The notes under the pieces: model-generated
What the model was told of the DNA's origin: nothing
The model's input: the letters and a program-made list of their open reading frames with translations, nothing else
Databases searched by the model: none
Part shown: positions 19,890 through 48,995 of the stretch, piece after piece
Layout of the letters: every line of letters begins with the position of its first letter
Position numbering within the stretch: the first letter of the stretch is position 1
Source: Chitinophagaceae bacterium
GTDB lineage: Bacteria; Bacteroidota; Bacteroidia; Chitinophagales; Chitinophagaceae
Length of the DNA stretch: 49,823 nucleotides
Reading direction: 5' to 3'
Assembly: GCA_947447265.1 (NCBI GenBank)
Contig: CANFKC010000036.1
Coordinates: forward strand, 1-49,823
Position numbers and translations under genes: made by a program

Positions 19890-20171
19890 ATCGTGTGGTT
19901 GTGAATGTAAAGGTCGGAAACCTAGCCAGCCATGTTGTTACACGATTCAGCGTTTGATTTATATGATTAAGACCACTTGCCAGTAGGTAGGAAAACTAGA
20001 AACCAGAGTCTAACTTATGAATTCGATAGATTAGACGGCAAATTTTGGCATGCAGATTTTAAACGCAAAGAGCGCGGAGTGTTCGCAAAGAAGGCGCTAA
20101 GTCTATGCGATTTATGCAGGTTTTTTATGCCGAATTGATATCCCTTATATGGCTAATATATCCAGAGCTGG

Positions 20172-45521: not shown

Positions 45522-45548
45522 ACAAAAAAGCCCTGCTTTCGCAAGGCT
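45522..45548 (-). terminator. Terminator of the dps-region operon
   Basis: AGCCTTGC and GCAGGGCT (one mismatch) form a short stem. On the minus strand it is followed by TTTTTTG. It lies ~75 bases past the stop of the last gene of the cluster. Confidence 0.7.
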
Positions 45549-45624
45549 GATTGATGGTCAAAAATATCTTTTCGTTCGGTGGAACTCGTCAGTCGTTTCC
45601 TTTCGCGCTGAAGCGTTTATGCTG

Positions 45625-45927
45625 CTATTTACTGTTTCTTATTTCTTTATTCTTAGCCCGCTGCTCCGCGTGCTCCTGCCTTTCCTTTTTGTGCATTTTA
45701 CGTTCTTTCTTATCTTTTTTGTCCCTTTTGCGGTCCATTTTATGTTCTTTGTCATTCCGGGCGTGTTCTTCCCTGTTGTCTTTTTTCTGTTCCTTGTCTT
45801 TCTGCATTTGCGCCTTGTCGTCAATCTTCTGCATTTTGTCCTCGCGCTTGGTAGGCACAGCCTGGGCAAATGAGTTGGTATACCCTAGTCCTGCGGCTAG
45901 TATACTAATGATGATGATCTTTTTCAT
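45625..45927 (-). CDS. Highly charged exported helical protein
   Basis: A 100-residue protein with a signal peptide ending near F-A-Q. The mature ~78 residues are almost only Lys, Arg, Glu, Asp, His, Gln and Met, in patterns such as K-D-K-E-Q-K-K-D-N-R-E-E-H. They contain no proline after the first few residues, as expected for a long single helix in the periplasm. No family is recognised. It is the last gene of the dps-region cluster, 52 bases after the membrane-protein gene, and is followed by a terminator. The charge pattern suggests binding of metals, polyanions or cell-wall components (speculative). Confidence 0.7.
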   Translation of the reverse strand: MKKIIIISILAAGLGYTNSFAQAVPTKREDKMQKIDDKAQMQKDKEQKKDNREEHARNDKEHKMDRKRDKKDKKERKMHKKERQEHAEQRAKNKEIRNSK

Positions 45928-45979
45928 GTTGTTCGTTTTAGTTGTTGTTTATTTTTTACGATTGTTTTTGTGTGAGCGG

Positions 45980-46519
45980 CTATTTTTTCTGCACGGGTGT
46001 TGTGGGTAAATTCTTCAGGGTTACAACCTGCACTTTCGTGGGCTCTTTTTCAATGTCAATAAACTTATTGCCGAGGATAAGCATAATAGAGAGTAGTAGC
46101 GCAGTAATAGTTAGGCTTACACCTATCGAATAACGTTTGCTGCCTTTGACTGTCATAAGTTTATTCACGGTATATGCACGCGTATTGGCATCAATTTCGT
46201 ACAGCAGTATTTCCCGGTAGCTTTTGCTTTGAAGGTCTTTATACTTTAGTACGTTAAATGCCTGGTCAAGTGGCTTTGTCCGGAAGAACGTAAGCATTAA
46301 GAGTATAGATGAGATAAAGCATGCCGTTGGTATTATAGAAACGAACTGAATTACCAGCAGCGTATTGTTCAGGCTATCGAGAAAGAACGGTATGTACAGA
46401 GCAGTAGCGCCAATTATGGTGCCGGCATAAGAGTGTTGTTGCCTGTAAGAGTCAACCTGTTTTTCAATAACTTCCTTTGAATTCAATGCCAGGAATTCCA
46501 GCTGTTTGAGGTCCTCCAT
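45980..46519 (-). CDS. Three-helix membrane protein, unknown
   Basis: A 179-residue protein with an N-terminal helical segment, three transmembrane helices (~32-49, 54-77, 131-150), and a ~50-residue soluble helical region between the second and third (L-K-Y-K-D-L-Q-S-K-S-Y-R-E-I-L-L-Y-E-I-D). No family is recognised. The start codon lies 27 bases past the dps stop. Its leader contains TTCAATCTAT, which also occurs before the first gene of the cluster. It is probably in the dps operon. Confidence 0.65.
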   Translation of the reverse strand: MEDLKQLEFLALNSKEVIEKQVDSYRQQHSYAGTIIGATALYIPFFLDSLNNTLLVIQFVSIIPTACFISSILLMLTFFRTKPLDQAFNVLKYKDLQSKSYREILLYEIDANTRAYTVNKLMTVKGSKRYSIGVSLTITALLLSIMLILGNKFIDIEKEPTKVQVVTLKNLPTTPVQKK

Positions 46520-46546
46520 ATCGTCCTTCCGTTATAGATTGAAGCA

Positions 46547-47026
46547 CTAATTTTGGTGGAGATGGGAGCGTAAGAACCAGGCCATTTTTTCGTGTTCCTG
46601 CATCAGGCAGGTTATAAAATCGCTGGTACCAAAATCCTGGTATTCGTTCCCGAAACGATGAATGTTTTCCCTTAAGTGGATGATGATACTTTCGTGGTCT
46701 GATAGTAATTCATTAATATAAGTAGTACTGTTATTGCCATCCTCCGTTATTTCGTCAAGGTGGGTCAATTCCAGGAATTGTTTTAATGAACCTGTAGCAT
46801 AATGCCCTAGTGTGCGTATGCGCTCTGCCACCTTATCAATTATTGCATCTAGCTGGCCGAATTGCGTTTCAAAGAAAATGTGTTTACTGTAAAAGTCTGC
46901 GCCTTCGAGGTTCCAATGCGCTTTTTTTGTTTTCGTGCAGAGCACGTATTCGTCGGCCAGCAATTTAGCCAGTTCAAATGCTACAGCCTTCCGGTTATCA
47001 GTACTGATGCCTATGTTCGTTTCCAT
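46547..47026 (-). CDS. dps: Dps ferritin-like DNA-protection protein
   Basis: A 159-residue Dps monomer that forms a 12-mer, oxidises Fe2+ with hydrogen peroxide and stores iron. The intersubunit ferroxidase ligands are all present with the E. coli spacing: H37, H49, D64 and E68 (A-H-W-N-L, S-K-H, D-K-V-A-E-R). There is no long basic N-terminal tail, so DNA binding may be weak or come from elsewhere. It lies within a co-directional cluster with two His-rich helical proteins upstream and membrane and charged proteins downstream. The 9-base element ACAATTCAA lies 10 bases before its start. Confidence 0.95.
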   Translation of the reverse strand: METNIGISTDNRKAVAFELAKLLADEYVLCTKTKKAHWNLEGADFYSKHIFFETQFGQLDAIIDKVAERIRTLGHYATGSLKQFLELTHLDEITEDGNNSTTYINELLSDHESIIIHLRENIHRFGNEYQDFGTSDFITCLMQEHEKMAWFLRSHLHQN

Positions 47027-47036
47027 TTTTTTTAAG

Positions 47037-47045
47037 TTGAATTGT
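47037..47045 (-). promoter_or_regulatory. Shared leader element before dps
   Basis: ACAATTCAA on the minus strand, 10 bases before the dps start. The same 9-mer occurs at 47398-47406 and 47716-47724, each 9-14 bases before the start codon of the next upstream genes. Confidence 0.55.
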
Positions 47046-47093
47046 AAACTGAATGTTTAGAGCAGGGTAGCAGTGCAACCCTTACTATTGCTT

Positions 47094-47384
47094 TTACTTA
47101 ATTATTCTGTTTTTGGCTGCCTGTACATGCTGCTTATTTATGCTATTAGACAGTTCGCAGGCTATAGCGTGGTGGCCATTGGCAAGTAAGCTGCTTTGTA
47201 AGGCCTTTTTTTCATTGCCTGCTTCATGGTGCCTGGCCGCGTTCAGGTGATGGTTCGATGCTTCTATATAATTGGCAGCCGCCTCTTTATGTTGAGCCGC
47301 TATTTTTTTGGTGGTCTTGTTTACGTTAACCTCAGTTACATTGTCGCTTACTTCGCCTGGATTTTCCGTTTTCGTGTTTTTCAA
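47094..47384 (-). CDS. His/Ala-rich helical protein, paralogue 2
   Basis: About 96 residues from a TTG start at 47384. This start is preferred to the ATG at 47429 because the leader upstream of the TTG aligns with that of the paralogous gene (T-C-A-C-A-A-T-T-C-A-A then ATCA). The body is helical with the pattern H-K-x-A-A-x(5)-A-x(3)-H-x(2)-A-A-R-H-x(3)-G-N-E-x-K-A, shared without gaps with the upstream gene. Regularly spaced histidines suggest metal binding (inference). I recall similar small proteins in Bacteroidota without assigned function. Probably co-transcribed with dps. Confidence 0.7.
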   Translation of the reverse strand: MKNTKTENPGEVSDNVTEVNVNKTTKKIAAQHKEAAANYIEASNHHLNAARHHEAGNEKKALQSSLLANGHHAIACELSNSINKQHVQAAKNRIIK

Positions 47385-47397
47385 AATTGTTGATGAT

Positions 47398-47406
47398 TTG
47401 AATTGT
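47398..47406 (-). promoter_or_regulatory. Shared leader element before paralogue 2
   Basis: ACAATTCAA, 13 bases before the TTG start at 47384. It supports this start over the ATG at 47429, which would place the element inside the coding region. Confidence 0.5.
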
Positions 47407-47439
47407 GACCTTATGTGTGTATAAAGCAACTCCGATTCG

Positions 47440-47706
47440 CTAAATAGTTTTGCTTAGATGAGCGTGATGTTTGGCATCTTCCCTTTGGTATTCACCAGCG
47501 TTAAAATGATCTCTCAGGGCCTTAATTGCGCTAGCACTTGCTTTGTATTCATCTCCATCACCGAGGTGTTTGGCTGCTTCATGGTGGTTTTTAGCGGCAG
47601 ACTCATGGTGCATTGCTGCTGTTTTATGATTTTCAATTGTCTTTTGTGTTATGCTTGCTGCTGCAGCTGCATTTTCTTTGCTGGTTATTGTTGCTTTAAC
47701 TGGCAT
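47440..47706 (-). CDS. His/Ala-rich helical protein, paralogue 1
   Basis: 88 residues from ATG 47706 (MPVKAT), chosen over an ATG 13 codons upstream that lies inside a palindrome. The protein is nearly all helix, rich in Ala, His and Lys: H-K-T-A-A-M-H-H-E-S-A-A-K-N-H-H-E-A-A-K-H, then G-D-E-Y-K-A, and a second part H-F-N-A-G-E-Y-Q-R-E-D-A-K-H-H-A-H. There is no signal peptide. It is the first gene of the dps cluster. No family is firmly recognised; metal or nucleic-acid binding under stress is a reasonable guess only. Confidence 0.7.
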   Translation of the reverse strand: MPVKATITSKENAAAAASITQKTIENHKTAAMHHESAAKNHHEAAKHLGDGDEYKASASAIKALRDHFNAGEYQREDAKHHAHLSKTI

Positions 47707-47715
47707 TTTGATAGA

Positions 47716-47740
47716 TTGAATTGTGAAGGAATTTTCACAA
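47716..47740 (-). promoter_or_regulatory. Operator-like palindrome and shared leader element
   Basis: TTGTGAA (47721-47727) and TTCACAA (47734-47740) form a perfect 7-bp inverted repeat with a 6-base spacer. They overlap the shared element ACAATTCAA (47716-47724), 9 bases before the start. A near -7 box (CACCTTTG, minus strand, 47743-47750) lies directly upstream, so the palindrome would cover the transcription start. Confidence 0.55.
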
Positions 47741-47786
47741 CACAAAGGTGGTAGGTTTCAGTACCTTAATGCTTATACAATCCTGA

Positions 47787-47814
47787 AAACCAATTGCATA
47801 ATTAATTGGTTTTT
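47787..47814. terminator. Bidirectional hairpin before the 195-residue gene's 3' end
   Basis: AAAACCAATT and AATTGGTTTT (47787-47796 and 47805-47814) pair around an 8-base centre, with T-rich ends on both strands. It ends transcription of the minus-strand gene at 47864-48451 and insulates the dps cluster. Confidence 0.65.
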
Positions 47815-47863: not shown

Positions 47864-48451
47864 TTATTTATCAATATCTTCAAAAATTAGTGTGTTCTCG
47901 GTTTTCCTTACAGCTATTGTAGTGTACAATGGTGCATATCTCTGTTGCCCGCTTGGATGAAAATGTTCGCTAATGAATACGTCTTCGGTTTCGTAGGCAT
48001 GCTCGACTTTCGGTCCGAAATAATGATTTTCAGGTGAAAGAACTAAGCTATCCATTGAAATTTTTTTAGGATTGAGTTTTGCTGCATTTTTAATTATTTG
48101 TTTTGCCCGATAATCATCACGCGCTGATATTTTTAGGGTAAAAATGTGGTGGTAATTTCCGGGAGAGAAGGATGAACTATTATTAATGATCTCAAATTTG
48201 TCTTGCAGTTTAATAGTATGTGTTTCAACTAGCTCTTTTGCCTCATTTCTAGTAAATAACTGGTCTTCGAATATAAGAAGCAGCGCAACCGTTATTACCG
48301 CAAGGCAATAGGTTAGCAAGAGGTACTTCGCGAGTTTGGGATATCCAAGCTTTTTCGGAATAAAAAATAGTAACCACCCAATGCCGAAGGGTAGCGCTAT
48401 AATGATCACAATGACCAACAATACAACAGTATAAAATAGGAAGCTTTCCAA
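47864..48451 (-). CDS. Hypothetical membrane protein
   Basis: A 195-residue protein with two transmembrane helices (~5-30 and ~42-62) followed by a ~130-residue soluble domain with alpha/beta character (F-T-L-K-I-S-A-R-D-D-Y-R-A-K-Q-I-I and Y-T-T-I-A-V-R-K-T). No family is recognised. The layout (two helices plus small domain) resembles the protein at 25284-25820, without clear sequence similarity. A -7 box on the same strand lies at 48553-48560. Confidence 0.6.
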   Translation of the reverse strand: MESFLFYTVVLLVIVIIIALPFGIGWLLFFIPKKLGYPKLAKYLLLTYCLAVITVALLLIFEDQLFTRNEAKELVETHTIKLQDKFEIINNSSSFSPGNYHHIFTLKISARDDYRAKQIIKNAAKLNPKKISMDSLVLSPENHYFGPKVEHAYETEDVFISEHFHPSGQQRYAPLYTTIAVRKTENTLIFEDIDK

Positions 48452-48581: not shown

Positions 48582-48599
48582 TAAAACAAAGTGCTTTTT

Positions 48600-48995
48600 A
48601 TGTTTCGATTCGATTTTGAATATTTCCTGTGTACTGCTGTATTGTTTGTAGCCGAAGTGCTGATTGCTGCCTTTATGCACGATAACTTTATCCGCCCCAC
48701 TTTTGGCGATTTCCTGGTAGTGCTACTCATGTATTGTGGCTTAAGTACGTTTATCCGTGCGCAATACAGCACCCTGGCAGTTGCAACTTTGGTAATAGCC
48801 TATTGCATAGAGATCTCGCAATATTTCCATCTTATTGTACTTCTCGGGCTAAAGCACTCTAAGCCCGCGCAATGGATACTAGGTAACGGGTTTTCGTGGG
48901 GAGATATGTTGGCGTATACCCTGGGTATCATTCTAGTTTTGATTATTGAAGGTCGACGGGGAAAAAGAGCTCTTGGTGCTGATGCTATTGCCTGA
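48600..48995 (+). CDS. DUF2809 small membrane protein
   Basis: A 131-residue protein from ATG 48600, three codons inside the longest frame. Four hydrophobic helices fill the chain. The family hallmarks are G-D-F-L-V-V-L-L-M-Y near residue 40, E-I-S-Q-Y-F in the third helix and F-S-W-G-D-M-L-A-Y-T-L-G-I in the fourth. DUF2809 proteins have no known function; the conserved Asp and Glu inside helices hint at an ion or proton path. The last residues are basic. Confidence 0.85.
   Translation: MFRFDFEYFLCTAVLFVAEVLIAAFMHDNFIRPTFGDFLVVLLMYCGLSTFIRAQYSTLAVATLVIAYCIEISQYFHLIVLLGLKHSKPAQWILGNGFSWGDMLAYTLGIILVLIIEGRRGKRALGADAIA

Follow-up and report, generated by a model that had tools for sequence, protein, structure and literature searches.

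The question raised by this locus is whether a gene for Dps and four unfamiliar neighbours act as a single regulated stress unit, putatively linking iron or peroxide handling in the cytoplasm to the envelope, as an initial annotation supposed. The stretch analysed (49,823 nucleotides, referred to hereafter as the window) corresponds to contig C36 in a Chitinophagaceae genome of 5.06 Mb. We consider it probable that the cluster forms a single operon within a stress regulon of Bacteroidota, with an AraC-type activator, a 5′ RNA hairpin, and metal-buffering and envelope outputs; its membership of the regulon is well supported.

The five genes run on the minus strand in the order A, B, dps, TM and charged (Table 1), separated by 55, 67, 27 and 52 bases, and all are coding according to a home-made hexamer caller (gene calls used a home-made script throughout); the gene B frame would permit a start as far upstream as 47429. 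Scores and coordinates thus bear out the compact layout initially described. A terminator-like stem and T run does follow the last gene, as had been claimed; because terminator-type matches over the whole scanned region numbered 5 against 3.9 in shuffles, the scan by itself is weak evidence. At the other end, the palindrome at 47786–47813 probably acts as terminator of the upstream gene (47864–48451). A DUF2809 gene (Pfam, 6e-25) lies upstream of the cluster on the plus strand, at window positions 48591–48995.

Table 1. Features of the dps cluster and its flanks (window coordinates).
Feature	Position	Strand	Description
Gene A	47440-47706	-	88 aa, His/Ala-rich; coding score
Gene B	47094-47384	-	96 aa, TTG start, paralogue of A; coding score
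dps	46547-47026	-	Pfam Ferritin (PF00210), 1.7e-21; coding score
TM	45980-46519	-	179-aa membrane protein, no named family
Charged exported helix	45625-45927	-	100 aa
Terminator-like hairpin and T run	45529-45548	-	8 pairs, 5 G-C; ~76 nt past last gene
Palindrome AAAACCAATT-N8-AATTGGTTTT	47786-47813	-	From sequence and RNA fold; overlaps promoter repeat 1
Regulon promoter	47743-47798	-	24.0 bits, matrix from 12 sites of other genomes
Leader hairpin TTGTGAA-AATTCC-TTCACAA	47721-47740	-	At or near predicted mRNA 5′ end
ACAATTCAA element	47716-47724	-	9 nt upstream of A start
ACAATTCAA element	47398-47406	-	13 nt upstream of B start
ACAATTCAA element	47037-47045	-	10 nt upstream of dps start

The leader elements described as shared are real: ACAATTCAA precedes the starts of A, B and Dps, the only three of 85 leaders checked in this genome to carry it (6 of 743 over all loci examined, the other three being in other genomes), and the window holds 5 copies against 0.96 in shuffles. 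The gene B leader resembles the 3′ part of the gene A leader, and from the sequences gene B resembles a tandem duplicate of A and part of that leader.

Of the five proteins, Dps alone matches a named family in Pfam and NCBIfam. It has a ferritin-like domain of the Dps type, matches 71 PDB sequences at E 0.001 or better (best 7.8e-27), and scores 2.4e-26 against the NCBIfam Dps model, albeit at 92.8 bits, below the cut-off of 114. The intersubunit ferroxidase ligands can be read from the sequence as H37, H49, E53, D64 and E68; the residue equivalent to D47 of the Listeria protein is Glu here. Across the family, 78 of 117 genomes carry Dps at E 1e-10 (this genome counted).

Proteins A and B are the paralogous His/Ala-rich pair first noticed (29% identical, with one profile recovering both), and their family has no Pfam or NCBIfam match. 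AlphaFold2 models gene A with helices at 7–49 and 53–87 (mean pLDDT 86.8); A and B are predicted to be two-helix hairpins of an unnamed family. With this genome counted throughout, a His/Ala protein was found in 9 of 117 family genomes at E 0.01, and the profile at E 0.001 recovers members in 5 of the 11 genomes of the genus and in 2 of the 395 of the phylum; among the records with related genes are Taibaiella, Flavipsychrobacter and Chitinophagaceae MAGs. A PycTM-family gene (Pfam, 3.2e-27; L094:5120–5701) lies directly upstream of one His/Ala gene.

From composition and a generic fold match, we infer that A and B buffer transition metals or iron. They might instead be structural or desiccation-type helical protectants, a possibility that we rate below metal binding and take seriously: the sequences are of low complexity with Ala stripes in heptads, the hairpin resembles many unrelated proteins, and CsbD and other stress genes are among the neighbours of the family. 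Bulk protectants, however, should need no fixed histidines, and in this family His is invariant or nearly so at positions 27, 33, 41 and 66 (gene A has Asp at 66). We therefore prefer the metal-buffering reading.

The TM protein was initially described as having three membrane helices, two of which are strong in hydropathy (about 54–80 and 130–155); the third, near 31–50, is discerned by eye and falls under the threshold. Its strong matches, over 126 distinct genomes of the family and genus, are confined to this genome, G020 (57%) and G124 (87%), in both of which the gene neighbours differ from those of the window; G427 holds a distant match. The charged protein is as extreme as claimed, with a signal-like N-terminus and 68% K/R/H/D/E beyond residue 22, and a relative at L098:1866–2114 is 42% identical (E 2.7e-12, low-complexity filter off).

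What joins these proteins is a promoter. Its consensus is TGTAAC-N15-TGTAAC-N23-CCTTTG, and most aligned matches carry two TGTAAC-like hexamers 21 bp apart, placed 22–23 bases before the box. The copy at the head of the cluster, scored with a matrix built from 12 His/Ala-gene promoters of other genomes, is degenerate: two weak repeats, TGCAAT (47793–47798) and, 15 nt on, TATAAG (47772–47777), are followed after 23 nt by an intact CCTTTG box (47743–47748). No other site in the window reaches 18 bits. A weaker site of this kind (17.7 bits; 19908–19963, minus strand) precedes a 109-aa lipoprotein-like ORF.

Across 1.30 Mb of the same genome, the matrix found 15 sites of at least 20 bits against 0.33 per shuffle set (first-order Markov resampling, as in all matrix controls), 7 of them in 1.2 Mb of unselected sequence and 8 in four loci chosen for His/Ala or ferritin genes. 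An additional 0.79 Mb yielded 2 more (0.2 in shuffles), bringing the unselected total to 9 sites in 2.0 Mb against about 0.5. Thirteen of the 15 end no more than 160 nt upstream of a called start on either strand, zones that make up 13% of the sequence. A cruder hand-set score used at a low threshold gave 43 matches in 1.20 Mb of this genome and 47 in 1.52 Mb of shuffled sequence, scarcely an enrichment.

Genes downstream of the unselected sites include CsbD, a YflT-like protein (an assignment below the Pfam cut-off) and an ECF sigma factor (named by reading), among others; an AI-2E transporter family gene also stands behind a site in this genome, and in the chosen loci the targets comprise a large catalase, FtnA, an AraC-type regulator and a His/Ala gene. 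In other genomes the promoter precedes Dps (L054, 32.0 bits), an AraC–charged pair (L098, 26.4 bits) and an apparent operon of a TM homologue (L062, 27.2 bits; SOUL-like, small charged, MgtC-like, TM and PPK2-like by reading). Control sequence (121 kb) contained no 18-bit site; it covered the distant TM locus, G101 and six Dps loci of other genomes that have no His/Ala gene nearby, although two of these loci come from genomes that do carry His/Ala genes. Dps is therefore not always a member of the regulon. Promoter-like sites also occur before similar large secreted proteins at L052:3202 (minus), L098:4701 and L058:12343, which on reading look like ice-binding-type adhesins.

The regulator is likely to bind the direct repeat that precedes the leader hairpin, and the activator is most likely a small AraC-type protein (HTH_18, 7.5e-15), a putative binder proposed from linkage. 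Its gene lies beside many regulon members, and four copies in the loci examined carry the same promoter themselves; a single copy at E 1e-10 or better is present here, on contig C22 (66554–67075). Of 28 His/Ala loci, 10 have an AraC-type gene no more than 6 kb away, and 8 have a ferritin-fold gene (Dps in 4, FtnA in 2, and one each that we named from sequence as rubrerythrin-like and DUF892-like). In compiling these loci, duplicate public contig records were merged by hand, as were the near-identical L093 and L095; L052 and L101 (not BLAST-labelled) were added by composition and L106 and L121 by position, and a weak G101 match was left out for its in-frame stops. In genomes with whole-genome counts, 6 of 15 His/Ala loci have an AraC-type gene within 6 kb (0.09 expected, P 6e-10) and 3 of 13 have a PF00210 gene nearby (0.07 expected, P 5e-5), in Poisson tests made post hoc on neighbours already noticed. 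Pfam calls nothing in the N-terminal part of the regulator; a (C/S)xxRC-like motif there (L050:4971–5531, L117, L096, L122) recalls metal-binding HMA domains.

An alternative sigma factor, for instance of the ECF type, could in principle read TGTAAC and CCTTTG in place of an AraC-type activator, since the second TGTAAC sits where a −33 element would and an ECF sigma gene has a promoter site of its own. We think this unlikely: most aligned promoters also retain the first repeat, 21 bp upstream, and it is AraC-type genes that are strongly linked and that in four copies carry the promoter. The AraC-type protein thus remains our candidate.

Past the box lies the palindrome that the initial annotation called operator-like. 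The palindrome itself is exact, with 7-bp arms; its pattern occurs once in the genome (a reversed control pattern twice) and alone defines no regulon. In many His/Ala leaders, a CCTTTG-like box is likewise followed a few bases on by a hairpin. When 13 such leaders (the window's included) are aligned, 93% of cells pair, both-sided changes occur in six of the seven hairpin pairs, and pairing at the five inner positions is intact in all 65 cells, with G-U in some. None of 500 shuffles reached the observed covariation on four of five measures, and 2 did on the fifth; slid registers scored far lower, a control that favours the tested structure since it was read from the same leaders. Folded whole as RNA, the leader is only mildly better than shuffles (z −1.74). 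Since the arms change together around a less variable loop, a conserved leader hairpin is the better interpretation of the palindrome. A DNA operator, at which a dimeric repressor blocks transcription start, would account for exact arms immediately past the box at the expected start site, and yet should conserve its arms rather than its spacer, the reverse of what the leaders display; we regard this reading as distinctly improbable and keep that of a leader hairpin.

The hairpin recurs before other genes. A model of it (R1) run at E 1 over 637 kb of loci gave 27 matches, 15 before His/Ala genes (13 of which are its training set) and 12 elsewhere. Six of the 12 lie within 5 nt of a gene start, the genes being two CsbD, a BON, a DUF326 Cys-rich, an outer-membrane-like and one unnamed protein; the remainder have a later or unclear start. 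It was not found before 13 of the 28 His/Ala loci, and R1 gave a single match (E 3.1) in 1.2 Mb of this genome. A second model (R2), trained on 11 leaders from other genomes only, was run over 1.30 Mb of this genome: its top match is the window leader (49.7 bits, E 2.8e-7), ahead of two sites in L052 (E 0.0036 and 0.041); a further 0.79 Mb gave a best match of only E 0.65. At E 0.05 the hairpin accompanies 3 of the 15 promoter sites, and with so few R2 matches most promoter sites in this genome are without a recognisable hairpin. In a genus relative (L108:7257–7620), a hairpin leader stands before a stretch 5′ of dps in which a BON-like gene appears to have a disrupted start.

The initial annotation had specified in advance that loss of the five-gene order in related genomes would count against a joint unit, and the order was found in none of the other genomes examined (126 distinct family and genus genomes). 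Its single stress unit therefore stands in part: the head promoter is there, and relatives of the genes lie behind like promoters; the arrangement itself was seen, of the genomes examined, in this one alone. Since such relatives occur behind these promoters elsewhere, the parts of the cluster belong to one regulon even though their order is not kept. That the five genes are adjacent by chance, without joint regulation, would fit the missing order but is very improbable given the short gaps, the single head promoter and the separate linkage of His/Ala, Dps, TM and charged types to such a promoter.

We envisage that stress would raise or activate the AraC-type protein, which would bind the TGTAAC direct repeat (in its 21-bp register) just upstream of, or partly replacing, the −33 element and so switch on transcription at the CCTTTG box, starting at or near the short hairpin with its conserved loop. 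The hairpin may act in RNA, either stabilising it or being bound by an RNA-binding factor, and the five genes would be read as one message. Dps would then oxidise and store iron, A and B might serve as buffers for transition metals or iron, and the envelope could be where TM and the charged protein act. A putative link from cytoplasmic iron or peroxide handling to the envelope is plausible.

The regulon most likely concerns iron, metal and peroxide stress. Bacteroidota are not known to have general stress sigma factors of the RpoS and SigB types, which raises the question of how their stress genes are coordinated; a defined promoter, a candidate regulator and a target list make it directly testable. 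We tentatively suggest, at somewhat under even confidence, that environmental Bacteroidota possess their own general stress regulon, with a small AraC-type activator acting on the TGTAAC repeat, a covarying 5′ hairpin on part of its genes, and a new His/Ala metal-buffering family alongside Dps and ferritin. The hairpin offers a possible RNA layer of control, and the neighbours of iron-storage genes include the His/Ala family, which has no name. That the cluster shares its type of promoter and leader hairpin with further stress genes, here and in related bacteria, points to a common stress-response gene set; a literature search (narrow terms, subscription papers mostly missing) found neither the regulon nor a bacterial His/Ala family named.

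How do these components compare with known systems? With Dld1, a DELD protein of Serendipita (Piriformospora) indica (PDB 5los), A and B share a length of about 100 aa, regular His/Ala and two helices around a conserved Gly. PMC3192844 defines DELD proteins as regular His/Ala two-helix proteins with a central Gly, a feature that A and B have; review tables list them under metal homeostasis, antioxidant action and interference with an iron-mediated defence. DELD proteins are secreted and end in RSIDELD, and A and B do neither (by eye, the N-terminus is not hydrophobic). Identity with Dld1 is 14% on a common fold with no sequence match found, a profile search of PDB gave one chain, of another protein (E 0.01), and phmmer with one relative gave no match at E 10.

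For TM, we considered the Pycsar membrane effector PycTM, as its distant relative L105 weakly matches the PADLOC PycTM model (2.4e-4). The window protein has no PADLOC match at E 1 and no Pfam PycTM match at E 10, and profile comparison with one PycTM protein gave a probability of 0.3%. Dps agrees with known Dps proteins (PF00210 Ferritin) in fold family and ligand spacing and is without unusual features, differing in operon partners that lack a named family.

AraC-family regulons with direct-repeat sites exist, and ours resembles them in its direct repeat of 21-bp register by the promoter and in the small AraC-type gene within its loci; it differs in a putative regulator whose N-terminal part has nothing Pfam-named, and in the added leader hairpin. 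The general stress regulons of SigB and RpoS have CsbD, catalase, Dps, YflT-like and BON proteins as targets, similar to those found here, whereas the promoter is unlike those of SigB and RpoS regulons, and control appears to run through a direct-repeat activator.
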